Source of the DNA: Desulfotignum sp.
Lineage (GTDB): Bacteria; Desulfobacterota; Desulfobacteria; Desulfobacterales; Desulfobacteraceae
Length of the DNA: 33,526 nucleotides
Direction: 5' to 3'
Assembly: GCA_011389715.1 (NCBI GenBank)
Contig: JAABTU010000333.1
Coordinates: forward strand, 1-33,526
Part shown: positions 7,151 to 29,162 of the stretch, piece after piece
How positions within the stretch are numbered: position 1 is the first letter of the stretch
Layout of the letters: the number at the start of each line of letters is the position of its first letter
The notes under the pieces: generated by a model
Seen by the model: the letters and a program-made list of their open reading frames with translations, nothing else
What the model was told of the DNA's origin: nothing
Database searches by the model: none
Position numbers and translations under genes: made by a program

Positions 7151-9600
7151 CCGCCTTTATGGGTAGCAATTGTATACCCGTTACCAGAAGATGTAATGGT
7201 AACCGCACCCTGGGTATCGGTTCTGAAAACCTGAATACCCCTTTGCCGGTAACGCGCCAGAACATCTGGATGGGGAAATTTATAGCGGTTGTTAAACCCG
7301 CAGGATACTATTACCCTTTCAGGGTGAATTTTATCAAGGAAAAACTTGGTTGAAGAGGTATTGCTGCCGTGGTGGGGGGCCAGCAGAATGCTGGACACAA
7401 GATTTTTATGTACCACCTGTGCCAGTAAGTGTTCCCTTGCTTTCATGATATCTCCTGGAAAAAGCATGGAAAAATCCTGCAGTTTCAGTTTGAAAACCAG
7501 AGAATTATCATTGGGATCCAATCCGGGACGAACAGATGCACACTGGAAAAATGCAAGCTCTGTTTTGTCATACAGGATTTGTTTTTTTTTGCAGTTCGGA
7601 ACAAAAACCGGAATCTGTCTGCGCTCACAGGCCGTCATGATACGGGTAAAAGCGTCATGGGCGCTTTTGTCCCCATTTGTGACCAGGGTACCGGTCCTGA
7701 AATTTTCCAGTATAAATACCAGCCCGTTCATGTGATCTGAATCAGGGTGAGTGAGTATGACGGCATCCAGTGCCATGATGCGCTGCTGCCACAAAAAAGG
7801 GGCCACCACATGCCTGCCTGTATCAAAACTACTGGTTCCGGGAAAACCGCCCCCGTCCACCAGCATGTTTTTTCCTTCAATGGTCTGAATCAGGGCGGCA
7901 TTTCCCTGGCCCACATCCAGTATTGTGATGACCATGTGCCCGGCAAGCTTTGTGCGTGTCACCGCCTGTATCCCGTATACGCCGGCAATTGTTATGACGG
8001 CAGAGCACACCAATATTACCGGTTTTGTCCTTTTAAAAGACAACAAACAAAAACCTGCTCCCATGGCCGTATACATGGCCACCATATCATATACAGACAA
8101 AGACGGTACATGGGACCAGGCAAAGGGAAGTTCCGTCAGCCAGGCAAGAAATGTGAGGCACAGGGAAACCAGTTTTGCCGCCATGGCCAAAAGCACACCG
8201 GAAACACCGGGAAAAAAAGGCCAGACAAGCAGGCTCACCAGACCAAGGGGGAGACAGACAAATCCGATTAAAGGTACCAGTATCAAGTTTGCCGGTAATT
8301 GCACCATGGAAATCATGTTGAAATACCGGGCGATCAACGGAAATGTGCCAATTCCTGCCAGCACGGTTACAAGGCAGATGGATGCGGGATATTTTAAAAT
8401 CTTCGGGATATGGGGTTTTTGGTATTTTCCAGCAATCCCCAGGCCGGAAATGATGAACAGCACCGCTGTAAAAGACAATTGAAATGAGATGGAGAACAAA
8501 GCACCCGGATCAGCAAGCAGAATAAGAATACCGGCCCCTGCCAGGATATTGACAGGATGGCTTTGTTTTTCCCCCAGAAAAGAAAACATAAACATGCTGA
8601 TCATGATAAAAGCCCGCTGTGTGGAAGGAGAAAACCCGCAAAACAACGCATACAGACCCAGGGGGACAAGGGTAAGTATGCCGGCAGCTTTCCTTGCCTT
8701 TGCAGAAATCAGCAGCCGTGGAAAACATGACAAAATCCGATAAAACAGATAAAAAAAGATGGCCGTCAATATTCCCAGATGAAGGCCTGAAATGGCAAGC
8801 AGATGGGACGCCCCTGACCGGGCGAACAGGTCTTTTATCTGTGTGGGCATCTGCTGCTTTATACCGGTAACCAGGGCCGCCAGGACATGGGCTGGAGCCT
8901 GGTGATCAAGACGGTTCATGGTAAAATGGTAAAACCGGTTCCGTGTATTTTCCAATGCCTGTATCCACCGGATCAATACAAAAGATTTTTCTTGGGAAAC
9001 CATGGCAATCTTATTTGCTCCTGTGTGGACAGCACCAAAGATGCCCTGGCGTTTGAGAAATGTCTGGTAATCAAATGCACCGGGATTTCCAAAATTCCGG
9101 ATGGGCCTTATGGGGCCGGGGCATTGGATAAGATCATGAAACTTGAAAGAGTGGTCTGTTTTTCCGTAAATATTCAGATACAGGCGGCCTGTGGCGGAAA
9201 TGACCTGGGTTTCTGTGTCTGAATCTGTTGTAACAATTTTCCTGCAGTCCAGCACCACCCGGATTTTATAGGGGTATTTTCGTGAAAAAGAAACAATTCT
9301 GCCCACAACACGGATGTCGGGATCATTGTAAAAATGGGACACATGGCCAGGTGAAAGCCTTGGAGAATGGATGTAAAAACTCTGATAACCGGACCAGATG
9401 CCCGCCAGAAGACAGATCCAGAAAACAAGCCATTTCCTGTAAAAAAATTTCGATAGGAACAGGGCAGCCAGAACAGCAAAGCAAAGAACAGCCAATAACA
9501 GATGCGTATGAGAAGAGACATTTCCCGCCAGGATCCCTGTAATCATGGCCAGGATTACAGGGACAAGGGGTGGAACCAGAGGGTGTGACGAATCTTTCAC
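7147..9600 (-). CDS. comEC: ComEC/Rec2-family DNA uptake channel protein
   Basis: An 817-aa inner-membrane protein of the ComEC/Rec2 family, which forms the channel carrying single-stranded DNA into the cytoplasm during natural transformation. The N-terminal part holds hydrophobic helices and a soluble DUF4131-like region. The central competence domain carries SGASHLLAISGLHLGI and GFSPSTQRAF. The C-terminal metallo-beta-lactamase-like domain carries DVGQGNAALI, a GG turn and the metal-site motif THPDSDHMNG, later APHHGSNTSS. The length is in the usual range for full proteins with the nuclease-like domain. The GTG start at 9600 is preceded by GCGAGGATAT, a good ribosome site. It sits 29 bp after murA in the same direction and overlaps the next gene by four bases. 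Confidence 0.93.
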   Translation of the reverse strand: MKDSSHPLVPPLVPVILAMITGILAGNVSSHTHLLLAVLCFAVLAALFLSKFFYRKWLVFWICLLAGIWSGYQSFYIHSPRLSPGHVSHFYNDPDIRVVGRIVSFSRKYPYKIRVVLDCRKIVTTDSDTETQVISATGRLYLNIYGKTDHSFKFHDLIQCPGPIRPIRNFGNPGAFDYQTFLKRQGIFGAVHTGANKIAMVSQEKSFVLIRWIQALENTRNRFYHFTMNRLDHQAPAHVLAALVTGIKQQMPTQIKDLFARSGASHLLAISGLHLGILTAIFFYLFYRILSCFPRLLISAKARKAAGILTLVPLGLYALFCGFSPSTQRAFIMISMFMFSFLGEKQSHPVNILAGAGILILLADPGALFSISFQLSFTAVLFIISGLGIAGKYQKPHIPKILKYPASICLVTVLAGIGTFPLIARYFNMISMVQLPANLILVPLIGFVCLPLGLVSLLVWPFFPGVSGVLLAMAAKLVSLCLTFLAWLTELPFAWSHVPSLSVYDMVAMYTAMGAGFCLLSFKRTKPVILVCSAVITIAGVYGIQAVTRTKLAGHMVITILDVGQGNAALIQTIEGKNMLVDGGGFPGTSSFDTGRHVVAPFLWQQRIMALDAVILTHPDSDHMNGLVFILENFRTGTLVTNGDKSAHDAFTRIMTACERRQIPVFVPNCKKKQILYDKTELAFFQCASVRPGLDPNDNSLVFKLKLQDFSMLFPGDIMKAREHLLAQVVHKNLVSSILLAPHHGSNTSSTKFFLDKIHPERVIVSCGFNNRYKFPHPDVLARYRQRGIQVFRTDTQGAVTITSSGNGYTIATHKGG

Positions 9601-9629
9601 ATATCCTCGCCCGCATATATGGTTTCAGC

Positions 9630-10883
9630 CTATTTGATGCGCACCATGTCAGCTCCCAAGGCACAGAATTTTTTTTCAATGGCTTCATATCCCCGGTCCA
9701 TATGGTACACCCGGGAAATCAGGGTGGTGCCTCTGGCCATCAGCCCTGCGATTACCAAAGATGCACTGGCACGCAGATCTGACGCCATAACCGGTGCTGC
9801 CTGGAGTTCCGGCACCCCCCTGACCATGGCAATGTCTGCCCTGGACAGGGTGATATCCGCCCCCATGCGCATCAATTCATTGGCATGAATAAACCGGTTT
9901 TCAAAAATGGATTCATGGATAACACTTGTGCCGTCTGCAATACACATCAATGTCATGAACTGGGCCTGCATGTCAGTGGGAAATCCCGGATAGGGAAGGG
10001 TTTTGATGTCCACACTTTTGACCTGTTCCATCCCCCTGACCCGGATCTGATCACCGCAGATTTCCACCCCGGCACCTGATGCTTTGAGTTTACTGATTAT
10101 CCCACCGATATGGTCCGGGTTACAGCCTTTGATCAGTACATTTCCCCGGGTGGCAGCGGCCGCCACCATAAAGGTGCCTGTTTCAATGCGGTCCGGAATC
10201 ACGGTGACCAGTGCCGGTGCAAGGCGGTCCACCCCTTCGATGGTAATGATGGGTGTGCCGGCCCCTGATATTTTTGCCCCCATTCGGCTTAGGGCATCTG
10301 CCAGGCATATAATCTCAGGTTCACGGGCTGCATTTCTGAGAACGGTTTTGCCTTTTGCCAGCACAGCAGCCATCATCAGATTTTCGGTCCCGGTGACCGT
10401 AGGGATGTCAAAATAGATCTCATTTCCCGTAAGTTTTTCCGCCTTGGCTTCAATGTAGCCATGATCAATGCCGATTTTCGCACCCAATGCCTCCAGGCCT
10501 GCCAGATGCATGTTCACCGGCCTGGCGCCGATGGCACACCCCCCGGGCAAAGATACCTTGGCATGCCCGAATCTGGCCACCAGCGGTCCCAGCACAAGAA
10601 TGGAAGCCCGCATTTTGCGCACAAGCTCATATTCCGCTTCTATTTTCTGTATGCCTGACCCGTCCACAGTCATGACATGGTTGTCAAAGGCACACCTGGC
10701 CCCTAAATCTTCCAACAGAAGCTTTATGCTGTGAATGTCCATAAGATTTGGAACGTTTGTGAATTCACAGGTGCCATCCACCAGGATACTGGCTGCAATA
10801 AGCGGCAGTGCCGCGTTTTTTGCCCCTGAGATGACAACTTCACCCGCAAGTTTTCTGCCGCCGTTTATTTGAATTTTGTCCAT
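9630..10883 (-). CDS. murA: UDP-N-acetylglucosamine 1-carboxyvinyltransferase
   Basis: Cytoplasmic MurA, the first committed enzyme of peptidoglycan synthesis, which transfers enolpyruvate from PEP to UDP-GlcNAc. From ATG 10883 the protein is 417 aa, the normal family length. It starts MDKIQINGG, then has the conserved [10 protein letters not shown] substrate motif and the catalytic loop [11 protein letters not shown] with the active-site cysteine intact. Fosfomycin-sensitive chemistry is therefore predicted. The frame is open upstream to 10934, but those 17 codons run into the terminator region after the tRNA and do not match the family. It is the first gene of the murA-comEC-membrane protein operon, and it begins just after the tRNA-Leu terminator. 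Confidence 0.96.
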
Positions 10884-10910
10884 AGAAACTACATACCGGA
10901 TTTTTAAGAA

Positions 10911-10943
10911 AAAAGGGTTTTGGAAAAAGGCCAAAACCCTTTT
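10911..10943 (-). terminator. Rho-independent terminator after tRNA-Leu
   Basis: A perfect 13-bp inverted repeat (AAAAGGGTTTTGG, 7-nt loop, CCAAAACCCTTTT) lies 10 bases past the tRNA 3' end in the minus direction. The T-rich run TTTTTTCTT follows it. It should end the tRNA transcript before murA, so murA needs its own promoter or depends on readthrough. Confidence 0.8.
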
Positions 10944-10953
10944 GCAGTTATGA

Positions 10954-11041
10954 TGGTACCTGGGACGAGAATTGAACTCGTACAGCCATTTTGGCCGAGG
11001 GATTTTAAGTCCCTTGCGTCTACCAGTTCCGCCACCCAGGC
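10954..11041 (-). tRNA. tRNA-Leu (anticodon UAA)
   Basis: The minus strand folds into an 88-nt class II tRNA. It has acceptor GCCTGGG/CCCAGGT, a D arm with GGTAGAC, anticodon stem AGGGA/TCCCT around loop CTTAAAA (anticodon TAA), a long variable arm typical of leucine, and T arm ACGAG-TTCAATT-CTCGT. Discriminator A and an encoded CCA end the gene. It reads UUA and UUG. The first acceptor pair is a G1-U72 wobble rather than the usual G-C. A strong terminator follows. Confidence 0.96.
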
Positions 11042-11159
11042 ATAATCTTAAATTTTTTATCGCATTTGCCAGGATTTTGCAAGGTCAAAATGCAGGATCA
11101 ACAGGACAATCACATGTAAAAAAATCATTCAGCAGAGGCTTTGATCATCCAGGCCCTGG

Positions 11160-12038
11160 TCAGGGTTTTGGATGGTGGTGTTTTATGAATTCAAAGGTAT
11201 ACAGGATAACACCGGCCCAGATGCAGGCAAAGGTGATCAGGTTGTGGATGGAAAACGGTTCTTTGTATACAAACACCCCCAGCACAAAGGCAATGGACGG
11301 GGCAAGATACTGCAGGATACCGATGGTGGACAGATTCAGCCGTCTGGCCGCTGACGCAAACCACAGCAGCGGCAGGGAGGTCACCACCCCTGCCCCGATC
11401 ATCCAGAAAGTGAGTCCAATATCTTTTAAGAACAAGGAACTGCCTGTTCCCATTAAAAAGAGAATATATGCCAGGGCCGGGACCATCAGGATCAGGGTTT
11501 CAACAAACAGCCCGGGCATGGGGGCCACCTGGATCCGTTTTCGGCAGTATCCATAAAAAGCAAAGGAAAAGGCCAGGGTCAGGCCGAATATGGGCAGGGC
11601 GCCATAGGCTGCCAGAGAATAGATCACCCCTGCCAGGGCAAACCCCAGGGAAATGCACTGCAGGCGGGTAAAGGTTTCCCCCAGCAGCAGATAGCCCAGC
11701 AGCACATTGATCATGGGATTGATATAATACCCCAGGCTGGTTTCCACCACCCGGCCGGAATTCACGGCCCATATATAGACAAACCAGTTCAGGGCAATCA
11801 GTGAACTGCTTATGGCAAGGCCTTTTACCAGGGAAGGGGTGCGAAGAATCCGAAACACCTCTTTTCCCCTTTTCTGGTAACAGATGATAATAAAAACAAA
11901 CACACAGGACCAGACAACCCGGTGGCACAATATCTCAAACGGTGAAGCTGCCTGCATCTGTTTCCAGTAGGCCGGCAGAAGCCCCCAGGCTGCAAAGGCA
12001 GCAAGTGCAAAAAGTACCCCGTAAAAAGGTTGTTTCAT
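11160..12038 (-). CDS. rarD: EamA/DMT-family transporter RarD
   Basis: A 292-aa inner-membrane protein of the drug/metabolite transporter superfamily, RarD subgroup (annotated in E. coli as chloramphenicol-sensitivity protein). It has about ten hydrophobic segments in two EamA repeats. It starts MKQPFYGVLFALAAFAAWG and carries the RarD-typical LCHRVVWS, LNWFVYIWAVN and the second-repeat hallmark LQYLAPSIAFVLGVFVYKEP. ATG 12038 is preceded by AAGGATA at good distance; an upstream in-frame extension to 12221 crosses the divergent maf start and is rejected. The substrate is unknown. It is transcribed alone, divergently from maf. Confidence 0.9.
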   Translation of the reverse strand: MKQPFYGVLFALAAFAAWGLLPAYWKQMQAASPFEILCHRVVWSCVFVFIIICYQKRGKEVFRILRTPSLVKGLAISSSLIALNWFVYIWAVNSGRVVETSLGYYINPMINVLLGYLLLGETFTRLQCISLGFALAGVIYSLAAYGALPIFGLTLAFSFAFYGYCRKRIQVAPMPGLFVETLILMVPALAYILFLMGTGSSLFLKDIGLTFWMIGAGVVTSLPLLWFASAARRLNLSTIGILQYLAPSIAFVLGVFVYKEPFSIHNLITFACIWAGVILYTFEFIKHHHPKP

Positions 12039-14162: not shown

Positions 14163-16379
14163 TTAGTTGGGGGGGACCCGTTTGATCTGGTTGATCATGG
14201 AAACAAGCCGTCTGTCAGTCTGGTGAAGCCGGGCGGCCAGCACTGTGAACAGATGCTTTGCCACTTCCGGATATTTTTCAATGATCTCTTCGAGCTTGTC
14301 TCCGGGAAACCGCTTGACTTTGGACCGCCCCTTGGAGATGATGGATGCGGACCGGGCATCTTTGGTGATGGCGGCCATCTCTCCGAAATATTCACCGGGC
14401 TGGGTGATTTCAGCAATTTTTTTGCCCCCTTTCACCACATACACGGCACCCTGGACCAGTTTGAAAAAATCGATGTCTGTATTGTTTTCCCGGATAATGA
14501 CATCCTTGTCTTCATATTGTTCCACATCCGGATTCACCAGGTAGGCGGGCAGAGATTCCTTGGTGATCACTGTTTTTTTCACCACCTCTTCCAGGGAGGT
14601 CTCCCCGGTTCTGACCTTCTGGAGCCCGGCATCCCGTAATGTGACCATGCCTTCCTGAACCCCCACTTTCCGCAGCTGGTCTTCGGCCACCTCCGCGCTG
14701 ATCGCCTTGGCCACTTCATCGGTGACTTCCATGAGTTCATAGAGCCCTACCCTGCCCTTGTATCCGGTGCCGTTGCAGTGGCTGCACCCATTGGGGCCCA
14801 TAATTGTAAGCTGAGAGATCTCATCTTTGGGAAACCCCTCGAGTTCCAGCTCTTTGGGGTTATGACCGGTGACCTGTTTCTTGCATTCCGGACACAGCCG
14901 CCGGGTCAACCGCTGGGACAAAACCATGGTTACAGATGCTGCCAGCATATAGGGCGGAATACCGATATCCACCAGACGGCCGATGGTGGAGGGACAGTCA
15001 TTGGTATGCAGGGTGGCAAAGACCAGATGCCCTGTCATGGCAGCCTTTATGGCGATTTCCGCAGTATCGAGATCACGGATCTCCCCCACCATGATAATGT
15101 CCGGATCCTGCCGCAGAAAGGCTTTCAGGGCAGCGGCAAAGGTCATACCGATCTCTTCTCTCACCGGCACCTGGTTGATTCCCTTGAAGTTGAATTCCAC
15201 CGGATCTTCTGCAGTCAGAATTTTAATATCATCCTTGTTGAGCCGGTTGAGGATGGAATACAGGGTGGTGGTTTTTCCGGAACCGGTCGGCCCTGTCACC
15301 AGCAGCAGGCCGTAGGGCCGTGAAATGCTGCGCTTGAGCATGTCAAAAGTGGCGGATTCAAATCCCAGCCGGGTCAGATCGATATTCAAAGCGCTCTGGT
15401 CAAGTATCCGCATGACAATGCTCTCCCCGAACAGGGTGGGCAGAGAGGATACCCGGAAATCAACGGATTTTTTTCTGCCCAGGCGCAATTTGATCCGGCC
15501 GTCCTGGGGAACCCGTCTTTCAGCAATATCCAGGGATGCCAGAATTTTTATGCGGGAAACCACTGCATTTTTAATGGAAACCGGCAGATTCATGGCTTTG
15601 TACATGCCGCCGTCCAGCCGGTACCGGACCTGGAAAGATTTTTCAAAGGGTTCGATGTGGATGTCTGACACCCCGTCGTTGATGGCCTTGGTCAGAATCC
15701 CGTTGACAAGCTTGATGATGGGGGCATCCGAGGCCATGAATTCATCCTGGCCGTCATCTCTTTCAGCCGTGCCCACCTCGATCTCTTCAGCCGCCTCGGA
15801 AACCAGAGACCCAAAATCTTCCACAGAGGTGACAGGGGTGTCGTCTTCTGCATCTTCCTCAAAATGGAGAAAATTTTTGTACGCGTCATCACTGATCTTG
15901 TAAAAATCCCGGTAGGCCTGGATGATATCATTTTCAGTGGTGACATACACATGGATATTCTTTTTTGTCTTGTTGTGCAGGTCTTCCACCACCTGGGTAT
16001 CGGTAGGTTCCACCATGGCCACGAAAAGGTCGTCATTTTTCAGGGCCAGGGGAAAGACCATGTTTTCTTTGGCCAGATCAAAGGGGAGAATTTTCTGGGC
16101 CGCCGCATCAGGCTTCATTTCTGAAAACCGGATCACATTGTAATTATAAATCCGCCCCAATACATTGATGATGGTTTCCGGATCAATATACCCTTTGTTG
16201 AGGAGAATGGCGCTGAGGCGTTCGCCGGTCTTTCTGTGCACCCCTAAGGCCTCATCCAGCTGGAGACTGGTAATCTGGCCCTCTTTGGAAAGAATTTCCC
16301 CTATCCGGGTCTTTCCGGCGCCGGACTGGTCCTTGATGGTGGATGTAAGACTGGATTTTCCCTTTGGATTTTTAACCAT
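14163..16379 (-). CDS. PilB/GspE-type secretion ATPase with C-terminal cyclic-nucleotide-binding domain
   Basis: A 738-aa cytoplasmic hexameric-type ATPase of the type IV pilus/type II secretion family. An MshEN/GspE N-terminal region occupies ~24-165. The ATPase core follows: Walker A GPTGSGKTT (363-371), Walker B DPDIIMVGEIRD, a His box HLVFATLHTND, and the zinc-type CPEC...CSHC pair (496-535). The family normally ends near residue 600. Here ~120 more residues form a cNMP-binding domain with phosphate-cassette residues GEYFGEMA and ARSASI (Glu667, Arg676), so ligand binding looks possible. It may couple pilus extension or secretion to a cyclic nucleotide. It is last in an operon after an ABC-F gene and a 69-aa membrane protein. 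No other pilus genes are in the window. ATG 16379 has only a weak ribosome site. Confidence 0.92.
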   Translation of the reverse strand: MVKNPKGKSSLTSTIKDQSGAGKTRIGEILSKEGQITSLQLDEALGVHRKTGERLSAILLNKGYIDPETIINVLGRIYNYNVIRFSEMKPDAAAQKILPFDLAKENMVFPLALKNDDLFVAMVEPTDTQVVEDLHNKTKKNIHVYVTTENDIIQAYRDFYKISDDAYKNFLHFEEDAEDDTPVTSVEDFGSLVSEAAEEIEVGTAERDDGQDEFMASDAPIIKLVNGILTKAINDGVSDIHIEPFEKSFQVRYRLDGGMYKAMNLPVSIKNAVVSRIKILASLDIAERRVPQDGRIKLRLGRKKSVDFRVSSLPTLFGESIVMRILDQSALNIDLTRLGFESATFDMLKRSISRPYGLLLVTGPTGSGKTTTLYSILNRLNKDDIKILTAEDPVEFNFKGINQVPVREEIGMTFAAALKAFLRQDPDIIMVGEIRDLDTAEIAIKAAMTGHLVFATLHTNDCPSTIGRLVDIGIPPYMLAASVTMVLSQRLTRRLCPECKKQVTGHNPKELELEGFPKDEISQLTIMGPNGCSHCNGTGYKGRVGLYELMEVTDEVAKAISAEVAEDQLRKVGVQEGMVTLRDAGLQKVRTGETSLEEVVKKTVITKESLPAYLVNPDVEQYEDKDVIIRENNTDIDFFKLVQGAVYVVKGGKKIAEITQPGEYFGEMAAITKDARSASIISKGRSKVKRFPGDKLEEIIEKYPEVAKHLFTVLAARLHQTDRRLVSMINQIKRVPPN

Positions 16380-16396: not shown

Positions 16397-16606
16397 TTAT
16401 CTAAAATTTTTATACACCCGGATACTGCCTGCAATCACCAGAAATATTCCCAGCATATAAAAACAGAACCTGACAATCAAGAGTTTGTTACTGAAAAAAG
16501 CGATGTTCGCCACCTGCTCCGTCACGTCAGGTATCCGGTAAAAGACCCCTAATCCCACTGCAATGAGAACAATCCCATAATAGAATGCGAATTTTTTTTT
16601 GTCCAT
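16397..16606 (-). CDS. Small two-helix membrane protein
   Basis: A 69-aa protein with two hydrophobic segments (about residues 7-23 and 42-63) and basic ends (MDKKKF, RVYKNFR), so both termini are probably cytoplasmic. I do not recognise a family. It starts 6 bp after the ABC-F stop codon and ends 17 bp before the PilB-type gene, so it is an operon member. An inner-membrane partner of the ATPase is conceivable but not shown by the sequence. Confidence 0.7.
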   Translation of the reverse strand: MDKKKFAFYYGIVLIAVGLGVFYRIPDVTEQVANIAFFSNKLLIVRFCFYMLGIFLVIAGSIRVYKNFR

Positions 16607-26016: not shown

Positions 26017-27288
26017 TCAACAGGTTTCAGGGATGATGCGGCAGACATCCAAAATCTGTGTTTTTCCCTTTATTTTCAACGCACCCAGCTGATCGATCCG
26101 GGCTATGTTGCCAAGGGTTTCAATATCCGCTTTCATCTCATCAAAGACCTTTGCGGACAGATAAATCTCATTTCCCCTGGCCATGGACTGCAGGCGCTGG
26201 GCCGAATTCACCGTATCTCCTATGACCGTATAGTTCAGATGGTTCTCCTCGCCTAAAAACCCGGCAATCAACTCCCCGGTGTTGATGCCCACCGTCATTT
26301 TCAATTTTTCACAGATCCCCCCTTTTTTATGCTTGAACCGGTTAAAGGCAAAAAACATGTCAAGGGCCGCAGACACGGCATGGAGACTGCATTTTTCATC
26401 ATGCAGGGGGGCGCCGAAAATGGCCATCACGCAGTCACCCATCAATTTATCCAGGGTTCCGGAATGTTTAAATACAACGGGAATCATATGGGAAAAAAAA
26501 TCATTCAGGATCACCACCACCTCTTCAGGGGAAATCGTTTCTGAAAGGGTTGTGAACCCCTGAAGATCTGCAAAAAGAATACAGGCTTTTATCCGCTCCC
26601 CGCCCAGTCGGGGCCGGCCGCTTTTCAAAATTTTATCCACCACATTTTTTGAAAAAAAACGGGACAAGTACATAATATGCTTTTCTTCACTGAGCTTGTC
26701 GAAATAAAACCGCTGAAAGGAAACCGTATTCATCAAATGATCCCTGACAATGGCATAAAAGTAGCTGTCTGCGGCTTGAAACCCCTGTTTTTTATTTTTA
26801 AATAAAACCAAAGCCCCATGAACATCTCCCCGTGAAATCATGGGCATCGCATAAAGCGATCCTTCCATATCATTGAATTCATCATAGTTGCTTACGTCTT
26901 CAATGATGATTTCTTCTTTGCCCGTTGTCAGGTTTTTCAACAGGCGGCTTTGCCGTAAAAAAGAATAATCCATCTGATTGTCAAAACTCGATCCGATGAT
27001 TTTCCCCTGGTGGTGCAAAAAATCCTTAAACAGATACAACACCGCACCGGACAGATTTTTATACTTGACCAGACAATCCAGTTGACTTCGCCAGATCCGA
27101 TCATGATCGGTAACGTCAATGGATTTCATTGCGGCAACCATTTCTTTTATAATGGACAGTTCATTGATTTTATGTTCATACTTTTGCTGGACAGTTAAAA
27201 ATTTATTTGTAATAAATTGAAACTGGGCCGGGCTCGGGGTGCTTGTCAGCTTTGTGCCGTCCATCATATCTTCCTTTTCCGACATCAT
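26017..27288 (-). CDS. GAF-type sensor with class III adenylate/guanylate cyclase domain
   Basis: A 423-aa cytoplasmic protein. Residues ~45-205 look like a GAF sensor domain (LSGAVLYLF, GSLYAMPMISRGDVHGALVLF). Residues ~230-400 form a class III nucleotide cyclase: CILFADLQGFTTLSE with the first metal Asp, HSGTLDKLMGDCVMAIFGAP with the second, VGINTGELIAGFLG, and YTVIGDTVNSAQRLQ. The catalytic core looks intact, so it should make a cyclic nucleotide; cAMP versus cGMP cannot be decided by eye. Its ATG overlaps the stop of the HDOD gene (ATGA), so both are produced together. A plausible receiver of its product is the cNMP-binding PilB-type ATPase at 14163-16379. Confidence 0.92.
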   Translation of the reverse strand: MMSEKEDMMDGTKLTSTPSPAQFQFITNKFLTVQQKYEHKINELSIIKEMVAAMKSIDVTDHDRIWRSQLDCLVKYKNLSGAVLYLFKDFLHHQGKIIGSSFDNQMDYSFLRQSRLLKNLTTGKEEIIIEDVSNYDEFNDMEGSLYAMPMISRGDVHGALVLFKNKKQGFQAADSYFYAIVRDHLMNTVSFQRFYFDKLSEEKHIMYLSRFFSKNVVDKILKSGRPRLGGERIKACILFADLQGFTTLSETISPEEVVVILNDFFSHMIPVVFKHSGTLDKLMGDCVMAIFGAPLHDEKCSLHAVSAALDMFFAFNRFKHKKGGICEKLKMTVGINTGELIAGFLGEENHLNYTVIGDTVNSAQRLQSMARGNEIYLSAKVFDEMKADIETLGNIARIDQLGALKIKGKTQILDVCRIIPETC

Positions 27289-29162
27289 GAAATCAAGCGT
27301 ACCAATTGGTTGTTTTCTTTTAAAAATACCCCGATATCTGCAATGCGGTCCGCAATTGTTCCAATGGCGACATCTTCAAATAACCCTGTCAGAAGATCCA
27401 TGTGGTCCTTCTGCAGCCCGGGGGTACCGTTTATGCAGTTTTTTTGATCATCTTTATACGTCATGTCCGCCAGGTAATCAGCCAGCCCGGTGATGGCAGC
27501 CAGCCGGGTATGGCTGGCGGAAGATGATGGGAGATGATGAAATGAGATGGCATGCACAAGGGATTCCGGCAGGTTCCACTTCTTTACAATAAGCCCGCCC
27601 ACAACACCGTGGTTATAGCCGAACACCTCCTCTTCAAACTCATGGACCGGCACGCCGGTCTGATTTGACCATTTGATAATCTGCCCGTATTCTTCCGGGA
27701 AATGGTCAATCAAAAAAATTTTGCCAAAATCGTGTAGAATACAGGCGGTAAATATTCCCTGATCTGAAAATTCTTTTTTGTTCCGACACATATACTGCCC
27801 AACCAGAGCGGTTTCAATGGAATGATGCCACAAATTCTTCGGATCAAACAATCCGTCTAAATTTGAGACAGTGAAGGCTTTTGACAGGCTCAATCCAAAG
27901 GCAAGATTCATAATTTCATCCCTGCCCAGAATAATCGACGCCTCTTTTACGGAACTGACCTTCCGGGCCAGGCCGTAAAAAGCGGAATTCACCAGTTTAA
28001 GGATTTTCAGGGTCAATACCTGATCCACCTCAATGATTTTTTTGATATCTTCAATTTCCGTATCAGGGTCCATGGTCAGATTGTAAAGTTGCAATGCCAC
28101 AGACGGTATGGTGGTCAAAGACTCAACACGGTTCAATTTTGAGATGACGTCGGACTGCCTGTTTTTACGCTGGATCAACTGCTTTTCAATTTCGCCTTTC
28201 AAGGCAAGTTCATTGATGATGCTATCACCCCGGCCATTAACCGTTGCGGGGGCCTGGGACTTGATCTTGCCCGATAAGAAAGGAATTAAAGGAGAATTAA
28301 AGGGGAGCCGGGAATAAAAGTTTTTTTGGGCAGAAATGGGAAGGGTGGACAACCCGGCCCAAATCACTTCCTGATCCATTGCCAAAAGTTTATGAAACAA
28401 ACGACCCCGGGCATGTTTAAACATCAAGACATCGGCTTTTAAAGCCGATGCCCGGGTGTCTTCAGCCGGAACCCCACCAGCCGGACCGGATTCCGGAATG
28501 GCACCAGGTGGATGCAATGCATCACCATAGGGTCTAAGACGGGTCAGTGCAACCTGGATCATTTCAGAAAAAGAATGGCCGTCCTTTGGGAAAACAGCCT
28601 CCCCCACTTTGATGGACGCAGTTTTTTCTACCAGTTCTATGATGGTATGGCCAATTTTGGGGACCAGATATTTCAGGCCGGATTCATCTGTGGTATATCC
28701 GAAAACAAGCACTTTGTTGTCTTCAATCACATAAACCGAATCGCTGTCCCGAAAGGCATTTTCGATATCCCCCTCTTTGCCCAGAAGGGACCGGGGAATA
28801 TCTTCTTTGTCACCGGGTTCAACCACCACATACACCATGGCCGTATCCACCCCGGCCCGCAAGGTCATATTGAACAGTTTTGAAATCCACTTGAGCTGCA
28901 ATTCATCAATATGAAAGGGGAACTGATCATCCTTGACCACCCGGGAAACCGACACGCCGGCATTCATGGCTCTCAGCTGTTTTATAATCCGGGCGGCCCT
29001 TTCCTTGTGAGGAATGTCACAGAGGATGGCCGGGTGATGCGCAAGTACCGTTTCCGCCTTTTTTCTGGAAAAATGAAATTCCCGGACAAGATAGTCAAGA
29101 AACGGTTCCGTATTTTGCAGATTCAGCTGTCGGAAAACAATTCTGTATAATGATTGCTGCAT
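27285..29162 (-). CDS. HDOD-domain signalling protein
   Basis: A 625-aa cytoplasmic protein. The HDOD domain at ~340-570 has LTTIPSVALQLYNL, LTLKILKLVNSAFYGL, and ACILHDFGKIFLIDHF with His477-Asp478, then FHHLP. HDOD domains are HD-GYP relatives mostly with regulatory, non-enzymatic roles. The first ~75 residues (YRIVFRQLNL... AGVSVSRV) look like a small alpha/beta domain. Residues ~85-215 have the spacing of a degenerate GGDEF-like domain, ending VGEAVFPKDGHSFSEMIQVA but lacking the GGDEF motif. Between them and the HDOD lies a variable, Pro/Gly-rich linker. It is first gene of the operon with the cyclase. ATG 29162 has no strong ribosome site. Confidence 0.88.
   Translation of the reverse strand: MQQSLYRIVFRQLNLQNTEPFLDYLVREFHFSRKKAETVLAHHPAILCDIPHKERAARIIKQLRAMNAGVSVSRVVKDDQFPFHIDELQLKWISKLFNMTLRAGVDTAMVYVVVEPGDKEDIPRSLLGKEGDIENAFRDSDSVYVIEDNKVLVFGYTTDESGLKYLVPKIGHTIIELVEKTASIKVGEAVFPKDGHSFSEMIQVALTRLRPYGDALHPPGAIPESGPAGGVPAEDTRASALKADVLMFKHARGRLFHKLLAMDQEVIWAGLSTLPISAQKNFYSRLPFNSPLIPFLSGKIKSQAPATVNGRGDSIINELALKGEIEKQLIQRKNRQSDVISKLNRVESLTTIPSVALQLYNLTMDPDTEIEDIKKIIEVDQVLTLKILKLVNSAFYGLARKVSSVKEASIILGRDEIMNLAFGLSLSKAFTVSNLDGLFDPKNLWHHSIETALVGQYMCRNKKEFSDQGIFTACILHDFGKIFLIDHFPEEYGQIIKWSNQTGVPVHEFEEEVFGYNHGVVGGLIVKKWNLPESLVHAISFHHLPSSSASHTRLAAITGLADYLADMTYKDDQKNCINGTPGLQKDHMDLLTGLFEDVAIGTIADRIADIGVFLKENNQLVRLIS

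Follow-up and report, generated by a model that had tools for sequence, protein, structure and literature searches.

That a second messenger can act on an assembly ATPase itself is known from MshE of Vibrio cholerae and PilF of Thermus (PMC5013675). The c-di-GMP site of MshEN consists of two 24-residue motifs, RLGxx(L/V/I)(L/V/I)xxG...LxxxLxxQ (PMC5013675). In the passages of a 2024 review that deal with PilB, control of this motor is described as c-di-GMP at the N-terminus together with partner proteins, and cAMP is described as acting through Vfr transcription (PMC11656802).

Here we describe pilB-cNMP, a gene in which a PilB-type motor and a cyclic-nucleotide-binding (CNB) domain are encoded in one chain. 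It lies in a stretch of DNA of 33,526 nucleotides, referred to below as the window, which lies on contig 223 of a Desulfotignum-like MAG (3.47 Mb, 515 contigs, completeness 78.6%).

Results

Domain organisation of the fused protein

The pilB-cNMP gene is located at 14163..16379 on the minus strand and is open from the ATG to the stop codon, without a frameshift. The encoded protein of 738 aa was annotated as a type IVa pilus extension ATPase with a C-terminal CNB domain (TIGR02538; PF05157, PF00437 and PF00027). Pfam places MshEN at residues 79-162 (57 bits), T2SSE at residues 217-600 (459 bits) and cNMP_binding at residues 620-703 (51.0-54.9 bits, with E 1.4e-13 at 51 bits; the gathering cut-off is 27.5). 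The initial annotation had proposed a search for PF00437 and PF00027 in one chain, and both score above their cut-offs in this single 738-aa ORF. PF00027 was also the sole Pfam match in 59 of 59 members of the C-terminal alignment.

Because the TIGR02538 model stops at residue 604, the C-terminal addition amounts to approximately 134 residues. The extra stretch is thus real, and slightly longer than the ~120 residues originally claimed. The PF00027 match is far above chance, and the architecture recurs in other genomes, as described below.

Distribution and origin of the fusion

The fused architecture was found in 146 other loci, a number that is redundant between collections, with 63 representatives under 88% identity. 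It is kept in every genome of the same family that was examined, at 61-100% identity. Among named relatives, a Desulfotignum MAG comes closest, with 99% identity in the C-terminal stretch. Named isolates with the fusion belong to Desulfospira, Desulfobacter and Desulfocicer. The phyletic spread of the architecture, raised in the initial annotation, extends across Desulfobacterales, Desulfobulbales and deeper Desulfobacterota; the genera named among the matches included Desulfotignum, Desulfospira, Desulfobacter, Desulfobacula, Desulfobacterium, Desulfocicer, Desulfamplus, Desulfobulbus and Desulfocapsa. Of the genomes sampled, 21 of 194 in the order and approximately 32 of 395 in the phylum carried the fusion. 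Four further matches in the phylum were short frames, and those that were read proved to be unfused tandem-CNB proteins.

A scan of one genome per species by two short patterns yielded 248 relatives. The best 80 of these 248 carry Desulfobacterota names or unspecific old proteobacterial ones, and all are fused PilBs or contig-edge pieces, except L133 and L081. Loss of the domain in some members was considered and rejected, the apparent cases being edge-cut contigs plus L133 and L081, in which a frameshift-like change lies upstream of an intact C-terminus. An assembly chimera or frameshift was ruled out by the same fusion in isolate genomes and in single-contig assemblies.

Scored on residues 1-604 alone, fused proteins reached at least 629 bits and non-fused proteins at most 588 bits. 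In a tree based on the columns before the CNB domain, which is of moderate weight (quick method, long branches present), all 31 fused rows were placed on one branch (SH-aLRT 96). The fused PilBs therefore appear to form one clade, consistent with a single ancient fusion without clear loss. Repeated independent fusions in the phylum were rejected on the basis of this single clade, and a close non-fused member was not found.

Related arrangements were seen outside this architecture and at its margin. Stand-alone tandem CNB proteins of 250-273 aa with a PKA-R-like layout occur in other Desulfobacterota (L150:5905-6726, L151:5611-6363 and L153:5759-6541), and some of their genes adjoin a miaB-like gene. 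The second domain of these proteins shares 36-40% identity with the PilB-fused domain and may have a common origin with it. In one deep family, f148 (L146:1036-3735, L147:1743-4541 and L148:2697-5489), a Pro/Ala-rich tail of approximately 150 residues extends beyond the CNB domain.

Identity of the motor

On the NCBIfam model TIGR02538 (type_IV_pilB) the protein scored 738.4 bits (cut-off 675.65), matching positions 2-563 of 564, and on the GspE model it scored 574.6 bits, under the cut-off of 630.25. The T2SSE motor domain (residues 217-600; 14580..15731, minus strand), a Pfam match, contains Walker A (363-371), the catalytic Glu, Walker B with E433 and a zinc site (Cys496/499/532/535), all of which are invariant or nearly so among the 63 representatives. 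No other GspE/PilB-like protein of the genome passes the TIGR02538 cut-off; the remaining four motors score 598, 549, 522 and 462 bits. One of these belongs to a gsp cluster on contig 479, whose GspE it is (GspE score 659 bits). That the fusion is a T2SS GspE was ruled out by its score under the GspE cut-off and by this separate cluster with its own GspE.

Family searches, used for presence only, located PilMNOPQ on contig 505, PilC on contig 466 and PilT and PilU together on contig 125. The assignment to PilB-type ATPases in the initial annotation was borne out by the TIGR02538 score and by the presence in this genome of PilC, PilT/PilU and PilMNOPQ. We conclude that pilB-cNMP encodes the predicted extension motor (PilB) of the type IVa pilus of this organism.

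In Desulfobacteraceae the fused gene lies away from the rest of the pil genes, with an ABC-F gene on one side and queH or another gene on the other; a dispersed set of T4aP genes is usual for deltaproteobacteria (PMC6060248). In deeper lineages the next genes are pilC and one for a PilS-like kinase (L157), or the next gene is pilM (L154, L155 and L156). These neighbours were named by eye, except pilM of L155, which passes TIGR01175, and pilC of L157, which passes PF00482.

Two unassigned PilB/GspE-like ATPases are encoded on contig 477 of the same genome (L158:2046-3911 and 9545-11389), without full pil or gsp clusters. One of them contains an MshE-type c-di-GMP domain (55 bits), and the product of the next gene starts HDOD-like.

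The N-terminal region

The MshEN-type N-terminal region (residues 25-162; 15894..16307, minus strand) was recognised by PF05157 and by the NCBIfam model of the MshE-type c-di-GMP domain (NF053729; 49 bits, cut-off 38), and its c-di-GMP motif II is degenerate. Of the 14 positions in these motifs for which a ligand contact is reported (PMC5013675), 5 are changed: L10I, Q32H, G40S, L54I and Q61I. Of 63 fused PilBs, 39 have Ser at position 40 and just 17 have Gln at position 61; most non-fused sister PilBs keep Gly40 and Gln61. In XpsE, c-di-GMP binding was lost via changes at several of the same motif positions (PMC5013675).

The suggestion in the initial annotation that c-di-GMP might control the protein through its N-terminus is less well supported than the rest of that reading: the score lies above the cut-off of the domain model, but 5 of 14 contact positions differ. 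Since key MshEN residues are altered, c-di-GMP sensing by this region is doubtful. Dual control of the fused PilB, with c-di-GMP acting beside a cyclic mononucleotide, would be possible.

The CNB domain and its pocket

The CNB (cNMP_binding) domain (residues 620-703; 14271..14522, minus strand; PF00027) contains a phosphate-binding cassette, YFGEMAAITKDARSASI, at residues 664-680. Both motifs quoted in the initial annotation are present, GEYFGEMA at 662-669 and ARSASI at 675-680. The domain is followed by a C-terminal capping helix (residues 704-738; 14166..14270, minus strand), in which R717 and T721 align with R123 and T127 of CRP. In a CNB cassette the Glu contacts the 2'-OH and the Arg contacts the phosphate, and E72, R82, S83 and T127 of CRP are cAMP contacts. 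BLASTP and hhalign aligned E667, R676, S677 and T721 with these four residues of E. coli CRP (crystal numbering).

All 63 representatives share F665, G666, E667 and R676 in the cassette and R717 in the lid helix, and 60 of them have Ser or Thr at position 677. All known-pocket residues that were tested are kept, save the equivalent of CRP S128, where Asp or Asn predominates; 28 of the 63 have Ala at position 721. The contact to the base therefore seems less fixed than that to the sugar-phosphate. Within the genus, dN/dS was lowest in the CNB domain (0.032), followed by the motor (0.053), the spacer (0.067) and MshEN (0.11), showing that purifying selection is stronger on the CNB domain than on the motor.

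A ColabFold model of residues 600-738 (59-row alignment; mean pLDDT 88.6) consists of a beta-roll, a phosphate-binding-cassette helix and a C-terminal lid helix. The best PDB matches of the CNB model in Foldseek were the CNBDs of HCN2 and HCN4, a Mycobacterium CRP with cAMP, E. coli CAP-cAMP, GlxR and Bd1971; the matches to GlxR and to cAMP- or cGMP-bound structures of HCN (HCN2 among them), CRP and PKA-R had a probability of 1.00. In a profile search of PDB sequences PKG, PKA-R and HCN ranked first among the named receptors, and the CNB domain of PycTIR was also among the PDB matches. The cNMP fold and conserved pocket residues recognised in the initial annotation were thus recovered by the PF00027 match, by E667 and R676 in 63 of 63 representatives, by the CRP alignment and by the HCN, CRP and PKA-R fold matches. 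The pocket is predicted to be intact and retained under selection, with the residues of cAMP/cGMP binders.

A CNB fold can also serve without a ligand. Cyclic nucleotides are not bound by many CNB domains of the bacterial CRP/FNR family and of the eukaryotic EAG type, and extra C-terminal interfaces can be used by hexamers, so the domain could have a structural or dimerisation role, stabilising the hexamer or docking PilC/PilM. In degenerate CNB domains the Arg/Glu pair is usually lost, whereas here E667, R676 and G666 are found in each of the 63 representatives, which cover at least two classes, with Ser/Thr677 in 60 of 63. Because the Glu/Arg pair is invariant, a purely structural role is disfavoured, and we regard it as improbable.

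It is more improbable still that the ligand is a cyclic dinucleotide, as in the CRP-like Clp proteins, or cCMP/cUMP. CRP-fold domains that bind c-di-GMP or cUMP do exist, PycTIR is among the PDB matches, and with the N-terminal c-di-GMP site degraded, c-di-GMP sensing could have moved to the C-terminus. The spacing of the cassette, however, is the canonical one of PKG, PKA and HCN (nine residues from E to R), the closest likeness is to PKG and HCN, and nothing points specifically to a dinucleotide.

Coupling to the motor

The spacer between motor and CNB domain (residues 601-619; 14523..14579, minus strand; ITKESLPAYLVNPDV) has a mean pairwise identity of 0.68 among the 63 representatives, nearly that of the motor (0.73), from which it follows that it is not a free linker; the value for the capping helix is 0.39. 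A full-length structure prediction gave a mean pLDDT of 42 and a pTM of 0.27, at which the placement of the CNB domain on the motor is not readable; the alignment was probably too shallow and too uniform.

These values also bear on whether the CNB domain, while binding a cyclic mononucleotide, steers the location of the motor (poles, contact sites or a partner), its assembly or its stability instead of ATP turnover. Conservation of the pocket fits this equally, the C-terminal end is plausibly exposed in the hexamer, and the variable capping helix is what would be expected of a lineage-specific interface. Targeting of PilB by partner proteins is moreover a known layer of control in the relevant passages of the 2024 review (PMC11656802). 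The conserved spacer fits mechanical coupling better, and no partner was identified. We consider this explanation, the strongest of the alternatives, unlikely, and favour a ligand signal that would be passed on to the motor itself.

Neighbouring genes and possible signal sources

Directly upstream of pilB-cNMP is a gene (16397..16606, minus strand) for an unannotated 69-aa protein with two likely membrane helices (MDKKKFAFYYGIVLIAVGLGVFYRIP...). It is situated between the ABC-F gene and pilB-cNMP, with gaps of 6 and 17 nt, and 13 of 14 Desulfobacteraceae have it in this position (47-87% identity). The protein had no match in a Pfam search. It is a possible candidate partner of the fused PilB. 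In one lineage the gene for a zinc-ribbon protein (MJ0042-like by eye; L171:7662-8723) overlaps the end of the fused pilB, and similar genes lie close by in L164 and L166; this protein, too, is a possible functional partner.

By family searches, the genome contains 9 class III cyclase domains and, besides the one in PilB, five CNB domains. The 9 cyclase domains are possible signal sources for pilB-cNMP. One class III nucleotide cyclase protein is encoded in the window (26017-27288, minus strand; PF00211, 97 bits; class IIIb adenylate cyclase landmarks by eye), where its gene overlaps the end of the neighbouring HDOD-domain gene (27285-29162). This cyclase was rejected as a dedicated partner, since it is absent from the equivalent neighbourhood in two congeners and cyclases show no enrichment: class III cyclases occurred in 21 of 21 genomes with the fusion and in 163 of 173 without it (Fisher p 0.60). 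Thus no dedicated cyclase was found.

Discussion

We propose that pilB-cNMP encodes a PilB with a permanently attached sensor for a cyclic mononucleotide, and that binding of the ligand would gate pilus extension post-translationally. From the sequence and model data, we put the probability of this reading at roughly two in three. Six CNB domains would hang from the hexameric motor, and a 3',5'-cyclic mononucleotide, most likely cAMP and next cGMP, would bind at E667, R676 and S677. The capping helix would then close over the base through T721, and the movement would be passed by the spacer (601-619) to the C-terminal lobe of the motor. ATP turnover or engagement of PilC/PilM would change, so that pili are extended or not. 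By analogy with the CNB modules of CRP, PatA-type proteins and HCN, we lean to activation as the effect of the ligand. Direct allosteric control of the motor by a cyclic nucleotide, as suggested in the initial annotation, is in line with this proposal and is something we infer.

More tentatively, Desulfobacterales, Desulfobulbales and their relatives may have replaced control of the motor at the N-terminal c-di-GMP site by control through a cAMP/cGMP receptor fused to its C-terminus. Such a PilB might be the first known secretion-type ATPase on which a cyclic mononucleotide acts as a direct gate, on a timescale of seconds and not by CRP/Vfr transcription; we give this broader idea somewhat less than an even chance.

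With an apparently intact CNB domain in the motor chain throughout the clade, direct control of pilus extension by cAMP or cGMP can be tested with one purified protein. If the proposal is true, the fused PilB would be a candidate target for the abundant and largely unassigned class III cyclases of sulfate reducers, and pilus growth may be switched by a small signal molecule at the motor itself, beyond gene expression alone. In sulfate reducers, pili are important for attachment and may be so for syntrophy and electron transfer.

In the titles and selected passages of the openly licensed literature, no description was found of a PilB or secretion ATPase with a cyclic-nucleotide-binding domain. 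The components are known and their combination is apparently new, and domain databases may list the architecture unremarked.

Among the best solved-structure matches of the PilB part were the PilB proteins of Myxococcus xanthus and Geobacter metallireducens (3jc8 and 5tsg; residues 23-604, 517-528 bits). These have the same Walker, catalytic and zinc residues, but, unlike pilB-cNMP, end without a CNB domain. MshE of V. cholerae and PilF of Thermus share an MshEN-type N-terminus and a motor with pilB-cNMP; their sensor is N-terminal and responds to c-di-GMP, whereas in pilB-cNMP the N-terminal motif is degenerate and another, putative sensor is found at the C-terminus. CRP and Vfr have the CNB fold and pocket residues in common with pilB-cNMP. 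In Pseudomonas cAMP controls pili too, but through transcription via Vfr, according to the passages of the review concerned (PMC11656802). In pilB-cNMP, unlike CRP and Vfr, the CNB domain is part of the motor chain, without a DNA-binding domain. The HCN and SthK channels, PKA-R and PKG, the cAMP-bound EAL protein Bd1971 (6hq4) and PycTIR, which were among the leading matches by sequence or by fold, all have a CNB domain attached to a gated effector, as is proposed for pilB-cNMP. What would set pilB-cNMP apart from all of these structures is its effector, a hexameric secretion/pilus motor.
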